Shown in pieces: positions 41,046 to 53,314 of a DNA stretch of 64,000 bases. The stretch's first letter is position 1; every line of letters begins with the position of its first letter. The notes under the pieces are model-generated. The model made no database searches, was not told where the DNA came from, and worked only from the letters and a program-made list of their open reading frames with translations. The DNA comes from Pseudomonadota bacterium. Lineage in GTDB: Bacteria; Bdellovibrionota; UBA1018. A program made the position numbers and the translations under genes. The stretch is from NCBI GenBank assembly GCA_027485695.1, contig JAIXQO010000002.1, forward strand, positions 496,001 through 560,000, given 5' to 3'.

Positions 41046-42569
41046 ATGGCTCAATTTTCTCTGAAAACGAAGATCAATTCCATTGTAGCGCTGGGAATCC
41101 TCGCCTCCGCCACCGCAACGGCTCTCTTGGTCGGGACGACTCACCTTCAGCAAAACGCAAGTAGCGTCCAACAACAGGTATCAGACGATTTAAATTTTCT
41201 GTCTCAAACCTACAATGCGACGAATACTGCCGCGCTCGCCGCGATGGATGCCATTGTTGATGCAGACTCACGAAAAGTGGCGAGCGACCTCAACGAGGAA
41301 GTCAAATCCTCTGCAGACGTAACGACCTTGAATCGCGAACGCCTCCGATCGCTATTCCTGACCTATACGAGCGAAGAGGAATGGAAAACATTTGAGACCA
41401 ATCGAAACGATTTCTTCGGTCAAATCCACGCACTATTCGAGGCGATTCCTAGATCCATTACCCCAGAACAAACCACTCAATATGATGATCGCATCGACGG
41501 GTTGGCGGTGAACCTCAAATCTTCGATCGAGAAGATGAGAGAAAATATGGACTCCCAAGCGAAGCAACGACTCAAAAAAGCCGTTGAACAAAGCGATTTC
41601 GTAAGACACCTATCGATCATTGCTTGCATCATCGCAGTCACGACGCTCATTGTACTCGGTTTAAGAATCTCACAGCAGACTTCGACGCAACTCCGTGAAA
41701 CATCCGGTGATTTATCTTTAGGCGCCAAAAGCCTCGAGAGTATCTCAAAAACACTGTTTGAGAGCTCAAAAACCCTCAGCGCAATGACAACACAAACCGG
41801 CGCGTCCTTGGATGAGACCACTCAGGCGACCGCGAGTCTAAATGACATGGTGGAACGCACCTTGAGCGCGGTTGATCAGTCGGTGCGAATCTCTAAGGAC
41901 TCCGACCAGCAGGTCATCGAAGGTCAGTCAGCCATTAAACGAGTCGTCGAACAAATGAGCGAAGTTCGCTCGATCTCTCAGGAACTGCACGCTTTCTCCG
42001 CCTTACTCGAAACGATGGATGCAAAACTCCAAGTCATTAACAATATCGTCATCAAGACTCAGCTACTGTCTTTTAATGCGTCTATTGAATCCGCCCGCGC
42101 CGGCGAACATGGCAAACGTTTCGCTGTAGTAGCCGACGAGGTTGCCAACCTTGCCAAACTGAGCGGTGACAGTGCTCTCGAGATTTTTGACCTGGTGAAG
42201 AAAAGTCGCGAAAAAGTCGAAAGCGTCATTTCAAACACTCAAGACCGGATCAACCAAAGCGATTCGGTCGTGATCAACGCTCAGAAAAAACTCAGTGAAT
42301 TGATGGGCAGTGTTCACCTCATCAAAGAACAAGTCGGCGCCATTCAAACTGTGGCCCTAGATCAGGCGCACGGAATCAAACAAATCAACTCCGCGATGCA
42401 AGAAATGCAAATCGCGGCGAGAAACGCCGAGAAACAAGCTGAGGAACTCAGTAGTACCTCGAAACGAGTGAATGAACTACAAACCAACGTTCAGACAAGC
42501 ACGCTCAAACTAGAACAGATGGTCTGTGGATCCGATTCGGCGGGCGAAAAACTACCTCATGCCGTCTAG
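41046..42569 (+). CDS. MCP-like chemoreceptor with divergent tip
   Basis: The product has 507 residues: membrane helix 1 (about 9-30), a helical periplasmic domain (about 31-187, 4HB-like), membrane helix 2 (about 190-212), then a cytoplasmic coiled coil with no clear HAMP. The signalling tip (near 331-360) reads [35 protein letters not shown], where standard receptors have FQTNILALNAAVEAARAG. It should dock CheA/CheW encoded 6 kb downstream. No CheR-binding pentapeptide stands at the C-terminus. It is transcribed alone, ahead of the divergent solute-binding gene. Confidence 0.9.
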   Translation: MAQFSLKTKINSIVALGILASATATALLVGTTHLQQNASSVQQQVSDDLNFLSQTYNATNTAALAAMDAIVDADSRKVASDLNEEVKSSADVTTLNRERLRSLFLTYTSEEEWKTFETNRNDFFGQIHALFEAIPRSITPEQTTQYDDRIDGLAVNLKSSIEKMRENMDSQAKQRLKKAVEQSDFVRHLSIIACIIAVTTLIVLGLRISQQTSTQLRETSGDLSLGAKSLESISKTLFESSKTLSAMTTQTGASLDETTQATASLNDMVERTLSAVDQSVRISKDSDQQVIEGQSAIKRVVEQMSEVRSISQELHAFSALLETMDAKLQVINNIVIKTQLLSFNASIESARAGEHGKRFAVVADEVANLAKLSGDSALEIFDLVKKSREKVESVISNTQDRINQSDSVVINAQKKLSELMGSVHLIKEQVGAIQTVALDQAHGIKQINSAMQEMQIAARNAEKQAEELSSTSKRVNELQTNVQTSTLKLEQMVCGSDSAGEKLPHAV

Positions 42570-43356: not shown

Positions 43357-43440
43357 CTCTTCTTCAATACCGTTTCCGATTATTCGTGAAATGCAGATCA
43401 CAGATTAAAACAATTGATCTTATTCCCCGATGATCCATTG

Positions 43441-44886
43441 ATGTTTCGAGTTTCACGTTTATCTTCTATCACCGCTCAACTCGTACGGATCCAAGTCACC
43501 GTGTTGACACTCATTCTGTTGCCGCTGACTTGGCTTGAAATCCGAATCATTAACTCCTCTATTAGTGAAAAATACCAAACGGAACTGCAAAAGAAAACCG
43601 CAGAACTCATCGATGCGGTTCGACCTTTCATGTGGGATTACGCGCAAGAAGAACTGGTGGCCAGCTTACGTCGCATTCACATCGAGGATACTTTTGCCGG
43701 CCTACTCCTGACGGACGACCACGGCAACGTCCTATTTGAGTCAAAAAACTGGCCTGATCTCCCGAAGACAGATTCGACCATTCACCCCATTCGAAAAAAT
43801 GCCCGCATCCTCGGCCACTTCGCTATGGTCCCAAACAAGCAAATACTGAACACGGCGATTCGGGAAACCTATACGTACGCACTCTTGAAACTCGTCCTCG
43901 CATTTTCACTGATTGGTGGACTGAGTTTCATCGCCATTCAACGACGGCTCGTTCGGCGTATTCTCCGCCTAAAACGCGATGCCGAAAAACTCCAGCGTAA
44001 GGAACTCTCTAAGCCGTTCGTTTGGGGTACGAGGGATGAGTTAGACCACCTGGGGGGCAGCCTAGAAAACGCTCGTGCGGAGTTGAGCGCTCTATTCGAC
44101 GAACAAAGGCAACGCAACGAAAGTCTGAAAAACAAGAACAGCGAACTTCAAGTTCAGATCAGTCAAAAAACGATGGAAATGATCCACCAAGCCCGACTTG
44201 CGTCCCTCGGCGAGATGGCCGCCGGTATCGCGCATGAGATCAATAATCCTTTGGCTATCATCGAAGGATCTACCTACCAGCTCAGCAAGTCCTTGTCGGG
44301 AAATGCCGATGGCCAGAAACGCACGGAGCAGATCAAAAATTCAACCGCGCGAATCTCTAAAATCATCCAAGGTCTCAAAAAATTTTCTCGAACATCAAAA
44401 AATACACAGATGTCGATGCATTCGGCAAAATTCATCATCAGTGAATCAATCCAACTCTGCGACCCCAAAATTCATCGACATCACTGCAAAGTAAATTTTG
44501 ATTGCAAAGAAGACTCGTGGATCCTGGCGGATGACTTGGAACTCGAACAAGTCTTCGTCAACTTGATCAACAACTCGATTGATGCGACTAAAACAGATCC
44601 CAGTAAATGTTGGATCAATATCACACTGACTCGCGAAGATAACGACGCGGTCATTCAAGTGATCGATGGCGGAAACGGAATCCCGCAAAACATCCAAGAA
44701 AAATTGTTTAATCCATTTTTCACTACCAAGCCCACTGGTGAGGGCACTGGGCTTGGCCTCTCAATCGTCAAAGGAATCCTGGATTCCCACCATGCCAAAA
44801 TAGGCATCAGGAACGAGATGAAAAACACCTGTTTCGAAATTCGATTCAGCGGAACATCAAAAAAAGGCGAAGAAAATGCGGCTTAG
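43441..44886 (+). CDS. Membrane sensor histidine kinase
   Basis: The product has 481 residues. Membrane helix 1 (about 15-33) and 2 (about 147-168) flank a small periplasmic sensor domain. A HAMP-like linker with coiled coil leads to HisKA with GIAHEINNPL (His near 265) and an HATPase_c with NLINNSIDAT, DGGNGIP, FFTTKPTGEGTGLGLSIV. It resembles NtrB/DctB-type kinases. A TTG nine codons upstream (43414) is an alternative start. Its stop overlaps the first response regulator by 11 bases; it opens the unit that continues through cheA-cheW. Input may come from the divergent solute-binding protein. Confidence 0.9.
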   Translation: MFRVSRLSSITAQLVRIQVTVLTLILLPLTWLEIRIINSSISEKYQTELQKKTAELIDAVRPFMWDYAQEELVASLRRIHIEDTFAGLLLTDDHGNVLFESKNWPDLPKTDSTIHPIRKNARILGHFAMVPNKQILNTAIRETYTYALLKLVLAFSLIGGLSFIAIQRRLVRRILRLKRDAEKLQRKELSKPFVWGTRDELDHLGGSLENARAELSALFDEQRQRNESLKNKNSELQVQISQKTMEMIHQARLASLGEMAAGIAHEINNPLAIIEGSTYQLSKSLSGNADGQKRTEQIKNSTARISKIIQGLKKFSRTSKNTQMSMHSAKFIISESIQLCDPKIHRHHCKVNFDCKEDSWILADDLELEQVFVNLINNSIDATKTDPSKCWINITLTREDNDAVIQVIDGGNGIPQNIQEKLFNPFFTTKPTGEGTGLGLSIVKGILDSHHAKIGIRNEMKNTCFEIRFSGTSKKGEENAA

Positions 44887-45220
44887 AATCGTTTACATCG
44901 ACGACGAAGTCGATCTCTGCGAACTCTTCTCGGATATCCTCTCCAATGGAAATCGGGAAATTACAACTTACACCGACGTGGCAAAAGCGCTTGAGTCTAT
45001 TCAGGGGTCCATGCCCGATATTGTTTTTTTAGATTTTCGACTGGTGGATACATCTGGAGATTCCGTGGCATCGGAACTCCCGAGTGATCTACCAAAAGTT
45101 TTGATCACCGGAGAAATCGACGTTCAAGTCGTCAATTCGTTCGTCAAAATATTTCCTAAACCGGTCCCATGGCAGGAAATAGACCAATTTCTACAATCGA
45201 TAGAAAGGAAAGCCGCATGA
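44876..45220 (+). CDS. Single-domain response regulator
   Basis: The product has 114 residues, a receiver only. Acid pocket D9/D10, phosphorylation site D53 (FLDFR), T78 (LITGE) and K95 (FPKPV) are all present, so it should be phosphorylatable. It is compact, with a shortened alpha-4 region. AAGG lies eight bases before the ATG. It overlaps the kinase gene (11 bases) and the next regulator (four bases). Without an output domain it probably acts as a CheY or as a phosphate sink/relay. Confidence 0.9.
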   Translation: MRLRIVYIDDEVDLCELFSDILSNGNREITTYTDVAKALESIQGSMPDIVFLDFRLVDTSGDSVASELPSDLPKVLITGEIDVQVVNSFVKIFPKPVPWQEIDQFLQSIERKAA

Positions 45221-45654
45221 GCAGCTCTCCAGCAAAAAAACGCATTTTGATTATGGATGATGAGCCTGAAATCCGTTCACTCTTCACAGACTTACTCCAG
45301 GCGGAAGATCGACATTTCATTGAAGCTGAAGATGGTGTCGATGGTCTGACAAAAATCAAGGAAGCCACGTTTGATCTCATCATTAGTGATTTAAATATGC
45401 CAAAAATGGCTGGACTAGAATTTCTCGAAACCATTCGAAATCAGGGAAATCTCACCCCAGTATTGATCGTCACGGGATTTACGGATGTCGCGAAAATCAA
45501 AAAGGCATGGGACCTGGGTGCTTTTGACTTCGTGGATAAGCCATTCGATGTAGAACAGATGCACTCCCTCGTCCGCAATGCGCTCGAATTCGGCAAACAA
45601 CAAATTGAATCTTGGAATCAACTGCGCCAGGCAAAAAGGCGAGGTGCGGAATGA
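45217..45654 (+). CDS. CheY-like single-domain response regulator
   Basis: The product has 145 residues: receiver with D14/D15, D58 (ISDLNMP), T86 (IVTGF) and K108 (VDKPF), followed by a 30-residue tail rich in Lys/Arg/Gln. The start at 45217 lies in the ATGA overlap with the preceding stop and has AAAGGAA upstream. With the preceding regulator it gives two receivers for two kinases (the histidine kinase and CheA). Confidence 0.92.
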   Translation: MSSSPAKKRILIMDDEPEIRSLFTDLLQAEDRHFIEAEDGVDGLTKIKEATFDLIISDLNMPKMAGLEFLETIRNQGNLTPVLIVTGFTDVAKIKKAWDLGAFDFVDKPFDVEQMHSLVRNALEFGKQQIESWNQLRQAKRRGAE

Positions 45655-47063
45655 GTGAAATTGAAGCAAAGTTTGATTTTAATGAGCTTTTCGTTTCGAT
45701 TACGGACAAACGCGGCGTCATCCTGTCGGGAAATGAAGTATTTGTCCGCGTGTCCGGTTATCAGCGATCAGATATGATCGGTGCACCACACAATATCATT
45801 CGTCATCCGGGCACACCAAAATGCGTTTTCAAGTTGTTGTGGTCGACCATCCAGGCCGACAAGCCCATCTTGGCTTATGTCAAAAACAAGACCAAAGACG
45901 GATTGCCCTACTGGGTCTTCGCGTCCGTTTACCCAATCGCCGAAGGCTACTTATCCGTCAGGATCAAGCCAGGCTCGCCACTCCTCGACCAAATCAAAGT
46001 ACTGTACGAAGAGCTAGTACAAGTAGAGAAATCCAAAGGGGTCGCCGCATCCGAAGAACTGCTGAAACGCAGACTCTTGGAGCTAGGCTTCAATGACTAC
46101 CATGAATTTTCACTGGCGGCTGCTAAAGCCGAGCTCACCCATAAACAGTCCACGATCAGTTCCGAAACATCGAAAGCCCAGGAAGCGCCTCAGTTCCGAT
46201 TAAATCAACACACCATTTCCGAAGAGACCCGATTCATGAGCGGGCTTTGCGGTCGCAACAACGAAGAATTCATCGATGTAAGTCGAGATTTTGACCATGT
46301 GTTCGCGGATAGTGATGCGATTCGAACGAACCTCTCCTCCATCATTCAATCCATTCGACGTTTCGAGTCTCTATCCGTCAATATGTCTCTCGCCTCGCAT
46401 CGGCTCGGATCCAAAGGACAAACTCTCGCCACAGTCGCCGAACGATTCGAACGCTGTTCTCAGGTGCTGCTCGGTCAAGTGGATAAGTTTGAACAATTTA
46501 ACGAGAGAAACCAAACCAAGGTCAAAGAACTCAATCACGTGCTGAACCGTTTAAGACTCCTCAATGAAATGCTGGAGTTTTATACACGTGAAGTGGCTGA
46601 TGCTTCGAGCCGACATGCCATGAGGGAAATACCCAACTGGCAGATGATCCAAAATGATTTCACGATTATGATCCGCGAGGTCATTTCACTTTTCCAAGAG
46701 ACGAACCAGCACACAAAACGAGCAATCGATGAACTCAATGATTTCCAGCAGGTTCTTAAGAGTTCGCGAATCGCGATCAGAAATCTAGATATTGTACGAA
46801 TCACCGGCAAGTTGGAGAGTGCATCTTCCGCTCAATTGGAAAAATCATTCCAACCTTATGTCGAAGAAATGTTGGGATTCATCGAACTCACTGACCGTAA
46901 TTTAAGTGGTATCGAAGAGGCCGCGCGTCACTATCAATTCGTCTATGACAAGATTCGAACGCTTTGCCTCAAGAGTACGTCTCGCCTACTCGAACTTGAA
47001 CTCCGGAACCTTCGAGTCAGATTCATCGAAACAACCCCGAATAAACCCTCGGAGGCCGCATGA
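45651..47063 (+). CDS. Soluble Aer-type PAS protein with degenerate MCP-like tip
   Basis: The product has 470 residues with no membrane helix. Residues 8-120 form a PAS domain with the Aer hallmark PHNIIRHPGTP (47-57), KNKTKDGLPYWV and PI, the pattern of FAD-binding energy-taxis sensors. Residues 200-460 are helical. Near 243-270, VNMSLASHRLGSKG followed by QTLATVAERFE aligns with the receptor tip [25 protein letters not shown]: the N, S, R, G, G, A, V, A, E positions are kept. It is thus likely a diverged soluble receptor. The start overlaps the preceding stop (ATGA). Confidence 0.82.
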   Translation: MSEIEAKFDFNELFVSITDKRGVILSGNEVFVRVSGYQRSDMIGAPHNIIRHPGTPKCVFKLLWSTIQADKPILAYVKNKTKDGLPYWVFASVYPIAEGYLSVRIKPGSPLLDQIKVLYEELVQVEKSKGVAASEELLKRRLLELGFNDYHEFSLAAAKAELTHKQSTISSETSKAQEAPQFRLNQHTISEETRFMSGLCGRNNEEFIDVSRDFDHVFADSDAIRTNLSSIIQSIRRFESLSVNMSLASHRLGSKGQTLATVAERFERCSQVLLGQVDKFEQFNERNQTKVKELNHVLNRLRLLNEMLEFYTREVADASSRHAMREIPNWQMIQNDFTIMIREVISLFQETNQHTKRAIDELNDFQQVLKSSRIAIRNLDIVRITGKLESASSAQLEKSFQPYVEEMLGFIELTDRNLSGIEEAARHYQFVYDKIRTLCLKSTSRLLELELRNLRVRFIETTPNKPSEAA

Positions 47064-48850
47064 GCATGGATCCAGAATTACTTCAGTGTTTTATCGAAGA
47101 ATCAGCCGACTTGCTCACGCAGTGGGAAGCGATCTGTCTTGAACTCGAAAAAGCACCTTCCAGCGACAAGTGGGACGCGCTTTTTCGTGTGGCTCACAAC
47201 ATCAAAGGAACTTCACGCTCGGTAGGCTTAGATGATGTCGGCGCATTCGTTCATCGCGTGGAAGACGGCATTACCCTGGCAAAACAAAACAAGATTGTGC
47301 CTGATTCCGGGTATTACCGCGCACTTTTTGCGGCTCAAAAAGAGTTAATCGACTGGGTAACTGCCGCTCAGGCTAACCCGCAGGTTCCGTTCGCACCGTC
47401 CGATTTTGAGCACCACTTTCGAGCATTGCTTGGGCAATCGACACCAGAGCCAACCGCTGTGAACGAGAAAACAGATGTCGCTCTGCTAACGCCAACGGAA
47501 ACTGTCGCGACGCCCGTTCTGGAATCTGTTCAGAACTCTCCACAGCATGTACCCAATGAAATCAAACCAGTCGGCAATTCAGCATTTTCGGAGCCACTAC
47601 CGTCAGGCTTAGTGGGAAAAACAGCACCTGCTCCCGCTTCGACCGCGACTCCAACTGCGACTCCCATCCCCGATGAGACGATTCGTGTATCCGCACGAAA
47701 GCTCGATGCGCTCATTCAAATGGTCGGAGAAATCTCTATTCAGCAAAACGTCGCCGCCCACCGCTCTCATACCTCGACCAGTAGCCATCAGGATCAAGCG
47801 CAATATTTGTTAAAAAAAATGACTCGTGACCTCTACGAAAAAGCCCTGTCCCTCCGCATGCAAACGGTTCAACCGATTTTTCAGCGCCTGGACCGCACCA
47901 TTCGGGACATCTCTAGCACACTCAATAAGCAAGTAAACGTGAGCCTAGATGGATCTGAGGTTGAACTCGATAAGACTGTTTGCGAGAAGATCATTGAACC
48001 CCTCACTCATATGGTTCGGAATTCCATCGATCACGGCATCGAGTCTCCAGAGATCCGAGAAAGCAGCGGTAAATCGAGAACGGGGAATATCCAAATACGC
48101 GCCGTACAAGACACCTCTTCGGTCTCTTTAATCATCGAGGACGACGGCAAAGGTCTGGACCCTAAAAAAATTCGCGATAAGGCGTTAGAACGTGGCCTGA
48201 TCAAAGAAAATACTCCACTCAATCCGAGCGAAGTATTCGCTTTGATTTTCTTGCCCGGATTTTCAACTGCAGAAAAAGTCACCGACGTCTCAGGGCGCGG
48301 CGTCGGTATGGACGTGGTCATGAGGGCAATCGACTCCCTGCGTGGAGAGATTCAAATCGCCAGCGAAGTCGGCAAAGGTACTCGATTCACGATCACCCTC
48401 CCACTATCACTCACCCTCATTGACGCCATCTTGATCGGAGTCCAGGGAGTTGAGTATGCCATTCCACTCGATTCTATTCACGAAGTGGTCGACTTGACCT
48501 CGGAGCATAGAGATCAGAGTACGATGATTCATTTCAATGATCGAGTCATCCCTCGAGTACAACTTTATAAGTACCTCAAGACTCATACGAAAGACCAAAT
48601 GCTCGGCCACCGTGCAAAGAAACTCCTCATCACCCGCGCCAACAACGGCATGGTGGCGTTTGAAGTTGATTCCGTTGGCGAAAAGCAACAGATCGTTGCG
48701 AGAAACCTTTCCCAAAATATCCGAGAGACTCAAGGCATCTCCGGCGGAACCATATTATCGAATGGCGATCCGGGGCTCATCGTGAACATTGATCAAATCG
48801 CGAGACTCTACCTCGCTCAAAATCAGTCGAATTACCAGGAGGCGGCATGA
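47060..48850 (+). CDS. cheA: Chemotaxis histidine kinase CheA
   Basis: The product has 596 residues. The P1 HPt domain has AHNIKGTSRSVG with phospho-His 46. A 100-residue Pro/Thr/Ala-rich linker (about 125-225) stands where the P2 CheY-docking domain would be, so P2 appears to be missing. P3 dimerisation (about 225-290) and P4 ATPase follow (HMVRNSIDHGIE near 316, DDGKGLDP, VSGRGVGMDVV), then P5 (CheW-like, from about 460). The start and end both overlap neighbours by four bases. Confidence 0.95.
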   Translation: MSMDPELLQCFIEESADLLTQWEAICLELEKAPSSDKWDALFRVAHNIKGTSRSVGLDDVGAFVHRVEDGITLAKQNKIVPDSGYYRALFAAQKELIDWVTAAQANPQVPFAPSDFEHHFRALLGQSTPEPTAVNEKTDVALLTPTETVATPVLESVQNSPQHVPNEIKPVGNSAFSEPLPSGLVGKTAPAPASTATPTATPIPDETIRVSARKLDALIQMVGEISIQQNVAAHRSHTSTSSHQDQAQYLLKKMTRDLYEKALSLRMQTVQPIFQRLDRTIRDISSTLNKQVNVSLDGSEVELDKTVCEKIIEPLTHMVRNSIDHGIESPEIRESSGKSRTGNIQIRAVQDTSSVSLIIEDDGKGLDPKKIRDKALERGLIKENTPLNPSEVFALIFLPGFSTAEKVTDVSGRGVGMDVVMRAIDSLRGEIQIASEVGKGTRFTITLPLSLTLIDAILIGVQGVEYAIPLDSIHEVVDLTSEHRDQSTMIHFNDRVIPRVQLYKYLKTHTKDQMLGHRAKKLLITRANNGMVAFEVDSVGEKQQIVARNLSQNIRETQGISGGTILSNGDPGLIVNIDQIARLYLAQNQSNYQEAA

Positions 48851-49320
48851 CCATGACTACGACCACTGAAACCACCAAAGAAAACCGGTACCTCATTTAC
48901 CGTGTGGGAACTGAACTCTATGGAAGCCCGCTCCTCGAAGTCCGGGAGGTCGTCGAGTACCAATCCCCTAAATATATGCCGAATATGGAGCCCTATTTCT
49001 CGGGTGTCATTAATATACGCGGCTCAATTGTGGGCGTGATCGACTTACGAAAGAAATTCAGCGCCCCGAGCGACGTTTCTCGCTACACGGCTCTACTCGT
49101 CTGCGAAAGCAGCACCGGCGCCATCGCCGCAATTGTCGACCAAGTCGAAAAAGTCGTGCCGATCGATGAAAGCGTCATCGAGAAGAAGCCCCCCGTTATT
49201 TCCCGGGTCGAATCGGACTACCTACTAGGCGTTGCGAACGTCGGAAATCAACTCATCACCTTAGTACATCTGCGTCCTGCATTGATGGAAATGAAATTGA
49301 TTCAAGTAAAAGCGGCCTGA
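48847..49320 (+). CDS. cheW: Chemotaxis coupling protein CheW
   Basis: The product has 157 residues, a single CheW domain after a Thr-rich start. GTELYGSPLLEVREVVEY, PYFSGVINIRGSIVGVIDLRKKF and the C-terminal LLGVANVGNQLITLVHL are typical. It links CheA to receptors. The ATG lies within the end of cheA (ATGA overlap), so production is probably coupled. Confidence 0.95.
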   Translation: MTMTTTTETTKENRYLIYRVGTELYGSPLLEVREVVEYQSPKYMPNMEPYFSGVINIRGSIVGVIDLRKKFSAPSDVSRYTALLVCESSTGAIAAIVDQVEKVVPIDESVIEKKPPVISRVESDYLLGVANVGNQLITLVHLRPALMEMKLIQVKAA

Positions 49321-49331
49321 GGAAATAGTTT

Positions 49332-51374
49332 ATGAGTATCAAAGCGACATTGACGAAAAAATTGACGGTGATTTCGGTTGTCCTCGCCACCTTGGGAGGA
49401 CTGGGAAATCTTGCTGTATTCAACAAACTCATTCATCGACTGGAGTCCTCTAAAAAAAACGAAGTAGACCAACTCACTCAAAAACTGGCCGGACAGATCT
49501 CTGCCCAGTTTTATGAACGCTACGGAGACGTCCAGGCGTTTGCGCTGAACCGAGTATTTGTCAATGGCTCAAAAAGCGAGATGACTTCTTCGTTGAATCG
49601 ATATGTCGCAACCTACGGAATCTACGACTTAGTCATGATACTAGATTCGCGCGGAAATGTTTTATCCGTAAACAGCAAGTCCCCTGATGGGAAGCCTCTG
49701 GATGTTTCTTCGCTTTCGGGCCACTCGTTCTCCAATGATGTCTGGTTCAAAAATCTTGCCGAGGGAAAACGGACGCAAGACTCCGAACACAAGCTCGATG
49801 GAACACTGGTCACAGACCCCACTCAATACGAATGGCTCAACCAGGCGTATGGAGAATCGCGAATAGTTAACTCTTTTGCTACGGCGCTTACCGACGAAAA
49901 CAACAAAACCGTCGGGTACATCGTCAACTTTGCAAACTTCAAATGGGCCACTGATGAGCTCAAAGCCAGCCTGAACCAGAACAACTCCCTCGGCAACCAG
50001 AACGATGTCTACGCCATTGTATCACCGACTGGTAGCACCATCTATTCAACCGATGGACACTCGACCGACTCTGCCGCCAAAGAAAAATCTGAAACTCCTC
50101 AGTTCCAATCATTTCTGAGCTTAGGTTCGCTCCCAACTGCGCAGTCTACTTATGAACTCACAAAGGGCGGAAAAAAGACTCCCGTCTATGAAAGCATTTC
50201 AAAAATCGAAGAACAGAAGTTCACCCGGTCACTGGGTTGGCTTGTTCTCGCTCAGCGTCCTGTCGCGAGCCTTCTCGGCTCCGCGTCTCAGCTCGTAGCC
50301 CTCTACTACCTGGTCATGACTGCCATCGTACTCGGTAGTAGCCTCATCTTTTTCGCTTACTCTAGACGAGTCTCGGGTCAGCTTCGCGATACAACGACGA
50401 TACTAAGCTCGGTCTCTCAAGAGAACGATCAAGCATTAGTCATCCTCGATTTGAGCGCTCGAGAATTAGCTTCTTCTACCAACGAGCAGGCCTCGGCAGT
50501 GCAAGAATCTGGCGCTGCCCTAAACGAGATGTCGAGCATGATCAGCAAAACGATCGAAAACGTAAAATCCTCCATGGGCTACGCTCAAAGCGCGAACGAG
50601 AAATCAAAATCGGGCGAAGCAATTGTCGCGAAAATGGTAGATACAGTCGAAGATATCGCTCGCGAGGCAAGTCAACTGAACGCTGTTTCCCAGGCGATTG
50701 GTGAGATCCAGTCCAAGACGAGCATGATCAACGATATTGTTTTCAAAACCCAGCTGCTGTCGTTCAACGCTTCTATCGAGGCGGCGCGAGCCGGAGCACA
50801 AGGACGCGGGTTCGCAGTAGTCGCCGAAGAAGTCGGAAACCTAGCGATCATGAGCGGAGCAGCTGCGCTTGATATCGAAAAATTGATCGATTCGAGTAAA
50901 CGCAGTGTGGATGAGATGCTGACATCGATTCAAGGTCGGGTAAAAGACGGCCAAACCGTCAGCAATGAGGTAGAGAATAGTTTTTCGGAGATTCGACAAG
51001 CGGTTGAACAGATCAGCGATCAGGTGTCAAACATCACCAATGCCGCTGAACAACAGGAAATCGGAATCAATGAGATTCAGGCCGCTATGGTCCAGCTCGA
51101 CGCCGCTTCTCAGAAGACTTCCGAAATGTCGATTCGCACTTTGGATTTGATTAAGACGATCGATACGCAGGGCAAAAAACTCAAAACTTGTGTGGTGACT
51201 CTCACGAACGTAGTGGACGGAGACGGCGCGCAACCGGGAGTTCTCCCATCCAGTAGTTCATCGAGCGACCGAACTGGTGAGGGTTCAGTGGCCGTTTCGT
51301 CCCTACCCTTGGAGAGCGTGATCGACGAGACGGTGTCTCCCGACGATGCAACATTCAAGAAAATCGCTGCCTAA
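49332..51374 (+). CDS. Methyl-accepting chemotaxis protein with Cache-type sensor
   Basis: The product has 680 residues. Membrane helix 1 (about 8-28), a large periplasmic domain (about 30-310) with dCache-like segments ([29 protein letters not shown]), membrane helix 2 (about 318-342), then a signalling coiled coil without an evident HAMP. The tip (near 466-500) is [22 protein letters not shown]. Gln/Glu-rich stretches such as [20 protein letters not shown] suit methylation by the adjacent CheR. It ends without a CheR pentapeptide. GAGGAAA precedes the ATG. Confidence 0.93.
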
Positions 51375-51391
51375 CTCAGATCGAGGATTCC

Positions 51392-53314
51392 ATGCGCTTA
51401 CTGGATTCTGAAATCGAAGAGATGTACCGATTCGTCGAGTTAAAAACCGGCGCATGTCATCAAGGCAGATTCCGTAAGGACATCATCCTCACTAATGTGC
51501 AGCGACTGATGTTACAGGAGTCCACCAAGACGTGGTCTGAGATGGTCGAAAGATCAAAATCAAATACAGCAGTGATGGACCGCCTACTCACGGCGATCAC
51601 TATTCATACCACTTCTTGGTTTCGGGAAGCGCCCCACCTCGACTACCTGACTAAGTGGCTTGAGACCCATTATGAAAAATACACCCGGGAAAAATTACGG
51701 GTTTGGACGGCAGCTTGTTCAACTGGAGAGGAATCCTATTCTTTTGCGATGGTTCTCGAAACCTTTCGGCAGAAAAATCCTCGTTTCGACTATGAAATCA
51801 AGGGTACGGATATCGATCCCATTTCGGTTCGTCGCGCGAGTCGATGCATTTTTACCAGCGACCAAATCCATTCGATTCCCGCAGCATTTCAATCACACCT
51901 CTGGATCGGATCGGGCCGTACCAAAGGTTTATTCACTCTGGATCCGGAAATCCGTTCGCGAGTGAAATTCGATACTTGGAATTTAGACTCTGGGACCTTT
52001 CCCAACAATAAACAACTATGGGACATCATCATTTGTAGGAATGTCCTCATTTACTTCGATCAAGAATGCGTGAAGCGAATCACGCAACGATTCTGCGAAT
52101 CGGTCAGTGAAAACGGCTTAATGATTCTTGGACACTCTGAGACACTCCCTCAATCTCCCGAAGGATTTAGTTTTCACGGGAATTCGATCTATGCGCGCGG
52201 CAAACATTCGGCTATTTTGAATTCAAATTCCGCGATGCGCGAGAAACAAGCGCCCAAGATTCTGATCATCGACGACTCAAAATCCGTGCGCCTGACGATT
52301 GCCAAAGAACTCTCACGCAAAGGTTTCACAGTGGTCGAGGCAATCTCTCCTGCCGAGGCGACTGCGGTGATTCGGAGAGAATCCGTGGATGCCGTCACGC
52401 TGGATTTAAACATGTTGGAACCAAACGATGGTTTCAAATGGCTTGCAGCTGCCCGTCGCGAAAATTTCAATCAACCAGTGATCATCGTGACGGACGCTCG
52501 TCCGGACGAGGCCGATAATATTTTCAAGGCACTGGAATCGGGTGCCCAGGACTATATTCAAAAAAGTTTCTTGGCCGGCCACAGCGATGAGCTCAGTTCC
52601 CGACTTCTTGGACTCATTGAAGCAAGTCAATCTGCGCTTCTGCCCACATCAAGGTCGATTGCTACCGCGACTCCCAATACTGTGCTGACTGACCCGGTCT
52701 CTTGCGAAGCCATCGTGATTGGTTCTAGTACCGGAGGTCCCGAGGCGCTTTCCCAACTGCTCGAAGATATCGCAAGCAAAAATGCGCGACTGCCGCCCGT
52801 CATCATTGTTCAGCACATCAGCCCAAATTTCGCCTTAGCGTTTTCCAAGCGACTCGCACATCTCTCTGGATTGAAACTCGCTAACTTCGCACCTCAAACA
52901 AAACTCGAATCCGGACACCTCTACATGTCTCCCGGAGATCAACACATTGCCTTGAGGCGTACAGGTCGCGATTTAACGATCGAACTACAAGATGGCCCGC
53001 AGCTGAGCGGTCACCGGCCATCCGTAGATTTTCTTTTTGAGTCTGCGGCTCGTGCAAATGCGCAAACGTTGGCTATCTTGCTGACCGGCATGGGTAAGGA
53101 CGGAGCCAACGGGATGCTCGCGCTGAAGAAACAGAAAAACTCAACTTGCATCGCCCAGGACCAAGCGACGTCTGTTGTGTATGGCATGCCACGAGAAGCC
53201 GTTCGACTAGGCGCTGTTGACTACTCCGCATCAGTTCAAGAGATCCGCAATATCGTGATCTCCTCTACTCCGCTTCAGTCCCAGGTCCCCTTGATCAAAA
53301 AACGGTCCGCTTAG
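51392..53314 (+). CDS. CheR-receiver-CheB fusion (receptor methyltransferase plus methylesterase)
   Basis: The product is one 640-residue chain. Residues 1-275 are CheR: helical N-domain, then WTAACSTGEESYSFAM (SAM site), GTDIDP, DIIICRNVLIYFD. Residues about 288-405 are a receiver with IDDSKS, phospho-Asp near 338 (LDLNM), IVTDAR and QKSF. From about 440 comes the full CheB esterase: GSSTGGPEAL (Ser), VQHIS (His) and TGMGKDGANGM (Asp). Both opposing activities therefore seem intact. In known CheB-CheR fusions, CheB usually comes first and lacks its receiver. It is last in the chemosensory unit, 17 bases after the MCP. Confidence 0.93.
   Translation: MRLLDSEIEEMYRFVELKTGACHQGRFRKDIILTNVQRLMLQESTKTWSEMVERSKSNTAVMDRLLTAITIHTTSWFREAPHLDYLTKWLETHYEKYTREKLRVWTAACSTGEESYSFAMVLETFRQKNPRFDYEIKGTDIDPISVRRASRCIFTSDQIHSIPAAFQSHLWIGSGRTKGLFTLDPEIRSRVKFDTWNLDSGTFPNNKQLWDIIICRNVLIYFDQECVKRITQRFCESVSENGLMILGHSETLPQSPEGFSFHGNSIYARGKHSAILNSNSAMREKQAPKILIIDDSKSVRLTIAKELSRKGFTVVEAISPAEATAVIRRESVDAVTLDLNMLEPNDGFKWLAAARRENFNQPVIIVTDARPDEADNIFKALESGAQDYIQKSFLAGHSDELSSRLLGLIEASQSALLPTSRSIATATPNTVLTDPVSCEAIVIGSSTGGPEALSQLLEDIASKNARLPPVIIVQHISPNFALAFSKRLAHLSGLKLANFAPQTKLESGHLYMSPGDQHIALRRTGRDLTIELQDGPQLSGHRPSVDFLFESAARANAQTLAILLTGMGKDGANGMLALKKQKNSTCIAQDQATSVVYGMPREAVRLGAVDYSASVQEIRNIVISSTPLQSQVPLIKKRSA

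Follow-up and report, generated by a model that had tools for sequence, protein, structure and literature searches.

A CheR-receiver-CheB fusion in Bdellovibrionota as a likely single-chain, receptor-tethered adaptation enzyme

In the window, that is, the whole stretch of 64,000 nucleotides analysed here, one gene joins a CheR methyltransferase, a receiver (REC) and a CheB methylesterase in a single chain. CheR and CheB work against each other in the textbook scheme of bacterial adaptation, and we consider it likely that the fusion acts as a single-chain adaptation enzyme anchored to the receptor tail, in which a constitutive CheR and a phosphorylation-activated CheB are held at 1:1. The initial annotation had read the three domains from one 640-residue polypeptide, and both the order of the Pfam matches (CheR, Response_reg and CheB_methylest from the N to the C terminus) and the uninterrupted frame agree with it. 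The gene has the following features.

51392 to 53314, + strand: putative CheR-REC-CheB single-chain adaptation enzyme, 640 aa, uninterrupted ATG-to-stop frame
51608 to 52180, + strand: CheR catalytic domain, aa 73-263 (Pfam CheR 4e-45; Foldseek 1bc5 TM 0.84)
51902 to 51955, + strand: CheR beta-subdomain loop, aa 171-188, ...GSGRTKGLFTLDPEIR (alignment with Salmonella CheR)
52166 to 52243, + strand: CheR-REC linker, aa 259-284, predicted disordered (pLDDT <50)
52259 to 52570, + strand: receiver domain, aa 290-393 (Pfam Response_reg 5e-17)
52403 to 52405, + strand: phospho-acceptor D338 in the receiver
52712 to 53251, + strand: CheB methylesterase domain, aa 441-620 (Pfam CheB_methylest 2e-50)
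52727 to 52729, 52814 to 52816 and 53099 to 53101, + strand: CheB triad S446, H475 and D570

This domain order is far beyond chance. As the initial annotation had also claimed, the catalytic or phosphorylation residues are complete in all three domains: R78, G112, E114, D140, N217 and Y221 in CheR; D294, D295, D338, T367 and K391 in the receiver, the aspartate expected near residue 338 being D338 itself; and S446, H475 and D570 in CheB. Pfam, the residues and Foldseek all identify a SAM-binding CheR domain with conserved motifs, and the remainder has the CheB layout of receiver, linker and Ser-His-Asp catalytic domain. The nearest solved structures by sequence are CheR 1BC5 over residues 47-268 and CheB 1A2O over 289-619. 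Pfam gave no CheR_N match in the fusion even at E<=5. Because residues 10-260 can be aligned to Pseudomonas CheR1 and the predicted model has N-terminal helices, residues 1-72 are probably a divergent N-terminal helical domain of CheR, not an absent one. The fusion is most likely a constitutive CheR joined to a phosphorylation-activated CheB.

Relatives were sought in 369 genomes of the same phylum, which is Bdellovibrionota: one genome of this set is identical (100%) over 3107 bases to a record named as Bacteriovoracaceae (L116). The key residues are well kept among the 32 fusions: S446, H475 and D570 are unchanged in 32/32, as are G112, E114 and D140 of CheR, and D338 is kept in 30/32. In the six closest fusions, G173, S174, G175, G179, T182, I187 and R188 of the beta-subdomain loop are also unchanged. 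Trees of the CheR, REC and CheB domains each recover one and the same group of 24 fusions as a clade (support 99), and the window protein belongs to it. Since three separate domain trees give exactly the same 24 members, this clade is, by its phylogeny, one old fusion passed on as a unit throughout the lineage. The fusions in L069 and in L068/L097 fall outside it and seem to have arisen separately. Three genomes, G063 (L065), G163 (G163:C48) and G344 (G344:C17), each have two CheR-REC-CheB genes a short distance apart and in the same orientation. A strongly diverged fusion (L071:8516-10420, genome G013) has lost the FRE arginine of CheR and the receiver aspartate and kept the CheB triad, and it has no receptor gene directly upstream. 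As for the origin of the fusion, cheR ahead of cheB is the commonest order of the pair (RB 165 vs BR 34 occurrences; PMC2829493), so the middle receiver is CheB's own ordinary receiver. In L100 and similar related genomes, cheR and cheB are separate genes that follow each other in line, divided by one stop. The simpler reading of these sequences is that cheR was joined to the adjoining downstream cheB.

In the main cluster of the same genome (L009:9017-12387, G000:C6), a 632-aa CheR-REC protein was found whose last ~190 residues have no Pfam family match. In the CheR tree, the main-cluster proteins group with most of the fusions in a single clade (98) and lie nested among these fusions. In a profile comparison, the last domain was matched to the first half of CheB with 91% probability (76% when CheB came from other lineages alone), compared with 0.1-3.8% for controls and no more than 1.2% for 20 column shuffles. 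The CheB catalytic motifs are gone from this domain and the receiver pocket is intact in 29/29. The main-cluster protein thus appears to be the same fusion, decayed to CheR-REC-pseudoCheB; matches to it occur in 130/369 genomes at E<=1e-70, some of them CheR-REC only. The next main-cluster gene encodes a REC-CheB with an extra N-terminal domain that matches none of CheR, REC, CheB or CheW. This domain is a recognisable CheD (PF03975) in L059 and in the named Bdellovibrio record L133, and a decayed CheD (97%) in other main-cluster CheBs. Judging by these CheB-like and CheD-like profile matches, the main cluster holds a CheR-REC-pseudoCheB and a pseudoCheD-REC-CheB, each enzyme carrying a decayed partner domain.

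The fusion gene closes a chemotaxis operon (43414-53314) that reads histidine kinase, receiver, CheY, PAS/helical protein, CheA, CheW, receptor (MCP) and fusion.

45169 to 45654, + strand: CheY-like receiver (44-51% identity in L060 and L062)
45612 to 47063, + strand: PAS and helical protein, conserved operon member (34-42% identity to neighbours in L060, L062 and L065)
47060 to 48850, + strand: CheA kinase, plausible phosphodonor of the fusion receiver
48847 to 49320, + strand: CheW
49332 to 51374, + strand: membrane receptor (MCP), likely substrate (motif and transmembrane predictions)
51336 to 51371, + strand: conserved C-terminal tail of the MCP, 12 aa, putative docking peptide

The order from CheY to the fusion also occurs in L060, from the PAS protein on in L065 and from CheA on in L063; in L062 the order is PAS-CheA-CheW-MCP-fusion, and the CheY gene is encoded on the other strand. 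The receptor is a plausible substrate of the fusion because a transmembrane segment is predicted at either end of its sensor region and residues 387-396 form a perfect methylation-type motif (Q391/E392 at 50502-50507). The PAS protein (also L060:2869-4305) resembles Aer-type PAS by eye and has a long helical part without a recognisable full MCP domain; it is conserved over its whole length in the fusion operons and may be a redox input or a scaffold. A histidine kinase and small receiver pair stands ahead of the operon in the window (43414-45220) and in L065:2447-5123, and related kinase and receiver genes also adjoin the fused genes in G063. A further receptor-like gene near the operon (41046-42569) has neither of the two tail motifs described below at its C terminus.

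Receptors adjacent to fusions end in a variable linker followed by a short conserved peptide, such as SADDDSFKKIA (L062), HADDDSFKHVA (L060) and SANDSSFKRAA (L065), and the tails of main-cluster receptors differ (PSENDPRFEDV, PSENDPRFKEV and PSEDDPRFEDV). Conserved tails of these types were recorded in the window (51336-51371) and in L040-L079, L182, L196, L197 and L199. Over the last 14 residues, the mean pairwise similarity of the 17 receptors beside fusions of the 24-member clade was 24.4, compared with 10.7 for other receptors, 19.9 for the best of 500 random receptor sets and about 10 for windows just upstream of the tails; these statistics are partly post hoc, since the patterns were noticed before being tested. 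The similarity between window-type and main-type tails was 14.6, and a few members of the main-cluster receptor group in this test are false or have no tail, which lowers the score of that group. The conserved tail is missing from 2/17 receptors beside the 24-clade fusions (L083 and L096), and in some receptors it does not lie at the extreme C-terminal end. Two kinds of locus separate tail type from architecture. First, the fusion in L066 is intact, but its CheR groups with those of the main cluster, and the receptor at this locus has a tail of the main type. Second, L067, L094 and L099 form one CheR subclade and have the common tail [KR][ND]D.[RK]WK, the L067 receptor being encoded opposite in strand to the nearby fusion gene. 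By these sequences, the tail type follows the CheR lineage, not the architecture, a match that could come partly from common descent because receptors and enzymes share operons. Altogether two, perhaps three, distinct conserved receptor tails were seen, each matched to one CheR lineage. The same genome also has an unlinked receptor with the main-type tail (L182), and the window-type tail was in none of its other receptors examined.

The beta-subdomain loop of Salmonella CheR binds NWETF. The fusion loop has the same length and no 3-residue gap, as in the pentapeptide-dependent type, and the fusion and main-cluster CheR families both have an NWETF-type loop without the gap of Pseudomonas CheR1. 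By analogy, the tail is probably an NWETF-like tether that would recruit the whole fusion. Known tether peptides have the form xZxxZ, with aromatics (F, W or Y) at positions 2 and 5 (PMC7390727), whereas tails such as SFKKI or RFEDV have one aromatic, followed by an aliphatic residue where the second aromatic would stand; the tail and CheR may therefore work like a pentapeptide system without being a listed member. This departure from the canonical form is also what speaks for a fixed-ratio fusion without a tail tether, in which the tail would bind CheW, CheA or a localisation factor and only the stoichiometry would matter. We regard this alternative as unlikely, because the tail type changes with the CheR lineage and not with the architecture, and because the two enzyme families alike have an NWETF-type loop.

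The role of the receiver was considered with an AlphaFold model, for which the input was an alignment of separate CheR and CheB relatives, alignments misplacing CheR on REC/CheB being left out. The model has a mean pLDDT of 77 and a pTM of 0.48, and the pLDDT falls below 50 at residues 259-284 (CheR-REC) and 415-432 (REC-CheB). With Foldseek, the C-terminal part matches whole CheB (6ymz, TM 0.76; 1a2o, TM 0.73) and the N-terminal part matches CheR (TM 0.82-0.84); the NCBIfam CheB model spans residues 288-624 as a single unit. By sequence and predicted fold, REC, linker and CheB in the fusion thus make an ordinary CheB. The CheR-REC linker varies from 6 to 46 aa among fusions, and the REC-CheB linker has 26-37 aa in most of them. 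The model and the linker lengths favour loosely strung domains rather than a rigid toggle, with uncertain relative domain placement at this pTM.

The earlier interpretation stood in part: the single chain, the complete residue sets and an order unlike that of known CheB-CheR fusions were all borne out, but a receiver toggling two activities is not supported, because a flexible linker stands ahead of REC. Under such a toggle, phosphorylated D338 would activate CheB and inhibit CheR, so that the chain would be either methyltransferase or esterase. REC does sit between the two enzymes, and D338 is conserved in nearly all fusions. The strongest argument for it comes from the main-cluster cousins, which retain a perfect receiver despite a dead CheB, so that REC may act on CheR there. 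Against this, the CheR-REC linkers are variable in length and predicted to be disordered, REC belongs with CheB by sequence, linker and fold, and a switch of CheB only accounts for the layout without extra assumptions. We therefore find the toggle rather improbable. Equally doubtful is its extension to the whole family, in which phosphorylation would turn CheB on and CheR off, only the CheR-regulating role would survive in the main-cluster descendants, and private tails would address each enzyme. If it were true, the main-cluster CheR-REC-pseudoCheB would be a phosphorylation-controlled receptor methyltransferase, and the decayed main-cluster pair does pose the question of whether a receiver can regulate CheR.

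That the fusion is a sequencing or assembly error, or that internal initiation yields a separate CheB, is hardly credible: several related genomes (g117, e.g. L100), where separate cheR and cheB genes stand in line and one stop divides them, would fit it, but full-length single-ORF relatives (about 29-45% identity) occur in >20 other, independent genomes of many families, G+C and third-position G+C are even along 51392-53314, and no ribosome-binding site was found ahead of in-frame start codons near the CheR/REC junction. An assembly error, raised at the outset as a possibility to check, is excluded by these relatives.

In the tethered, phosphorylation-activated enzyme that we favour, the CheR part would methylate receptor glutamates constitutively, and the REC-CheB part would behave as an ordinary CheB, switched on when the CheA of the operon phosphorylates D338. 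The fusion would have two beneficial features. First, it would lock the CheR:CheB ratio at 1:1. In robustness theory, the CheR:CheB ratio matters, and here the ratio of opposing adaptation enzymes would be fixed across a whole lineage. In E. coli, coupled expression of cheR and cheB improves chemotaxis, and modelling predicts lower output noise (PMC2716512). Second, the beta-subdomain of CheR would grip the cognate receptor tail and carry CheB to the array, with no need for a weak tether of its own. Because in E. coli the affinity of CheB for the tether is much lower than that of CheR (160 uM vs 2 uM; PMC7390727, PMC7698151), the fusion would lend CheB the CheR tether. In addition, the matched tails suggest a simple address code by which one cell could keep two adaptation enzymes separate.

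Compared with known systems, the fusion is like the CheB of Salmonella (1A2O) and Pectobacterium (6YMZ) in REC, linker, catalytic domain, Ser-His-Asp triad and layout, and differs in bearing CheR at the N terminus. With the pentapeptide-binding CheR of Salmonella (1BC5) it shares the SAM-site motifs, the FRE motif, a loop of equal length and the GSG/GTG motif, but its N-terminal helical domain is divergent, REC-CheB follows, and the receptor tail is of the SFKK[IV] type, not NWETF. FrzF (PMC3447774) and other CheR-TPR fusions also add a regulatory domain to CheR, which is TPR and not REC-CheB. The CheB-CheR(-PAS/kinase) fusions, e.g. the putative reverse-order fusion CheBRA of Rhodobacter (PMC6829392), likewise hold both enzymes in one chain, but CheB comes first with no receiver ahead of it; one of 1411 aa, also with CheB first, no receiver ahead and a REC near the C-terminal end, is encoded in the same genome (L010:3503-7738). 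A bare-protein search of the genome collection outside the phylum found no relative. In an alignment-based search, the best 80 of 592 loci comprised 79 in which the genes were separate or otherwise arranged, and a single CheR-CheB fusion without REC, L165 of Tepidiphilus olei; this limited sample, biased by the search patterns and including two Bdellovibrionota records (L116 and L133), says little on rarer fusions elsewhere. The Tepidiphilus protein (548 aa, L165:9791-11437) has CheR before CheB as here, but it lacks the receiver, belongs to a different phylum (Pseudomonadota) and, by the trees of both CheR and CheB, arose independently; it would be an esterase without phospho-control. No description of a CheR-REC-CheB protein was found in the open-access literature searched, and the order differs from that of the known reverse-order CheB-CheR fusions. 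The closest parallel in gene order is the neighbouring cheR and cheB of E. coli and many other bacteria, which share the order, the co-expression and the opposing activities but make two proteins.
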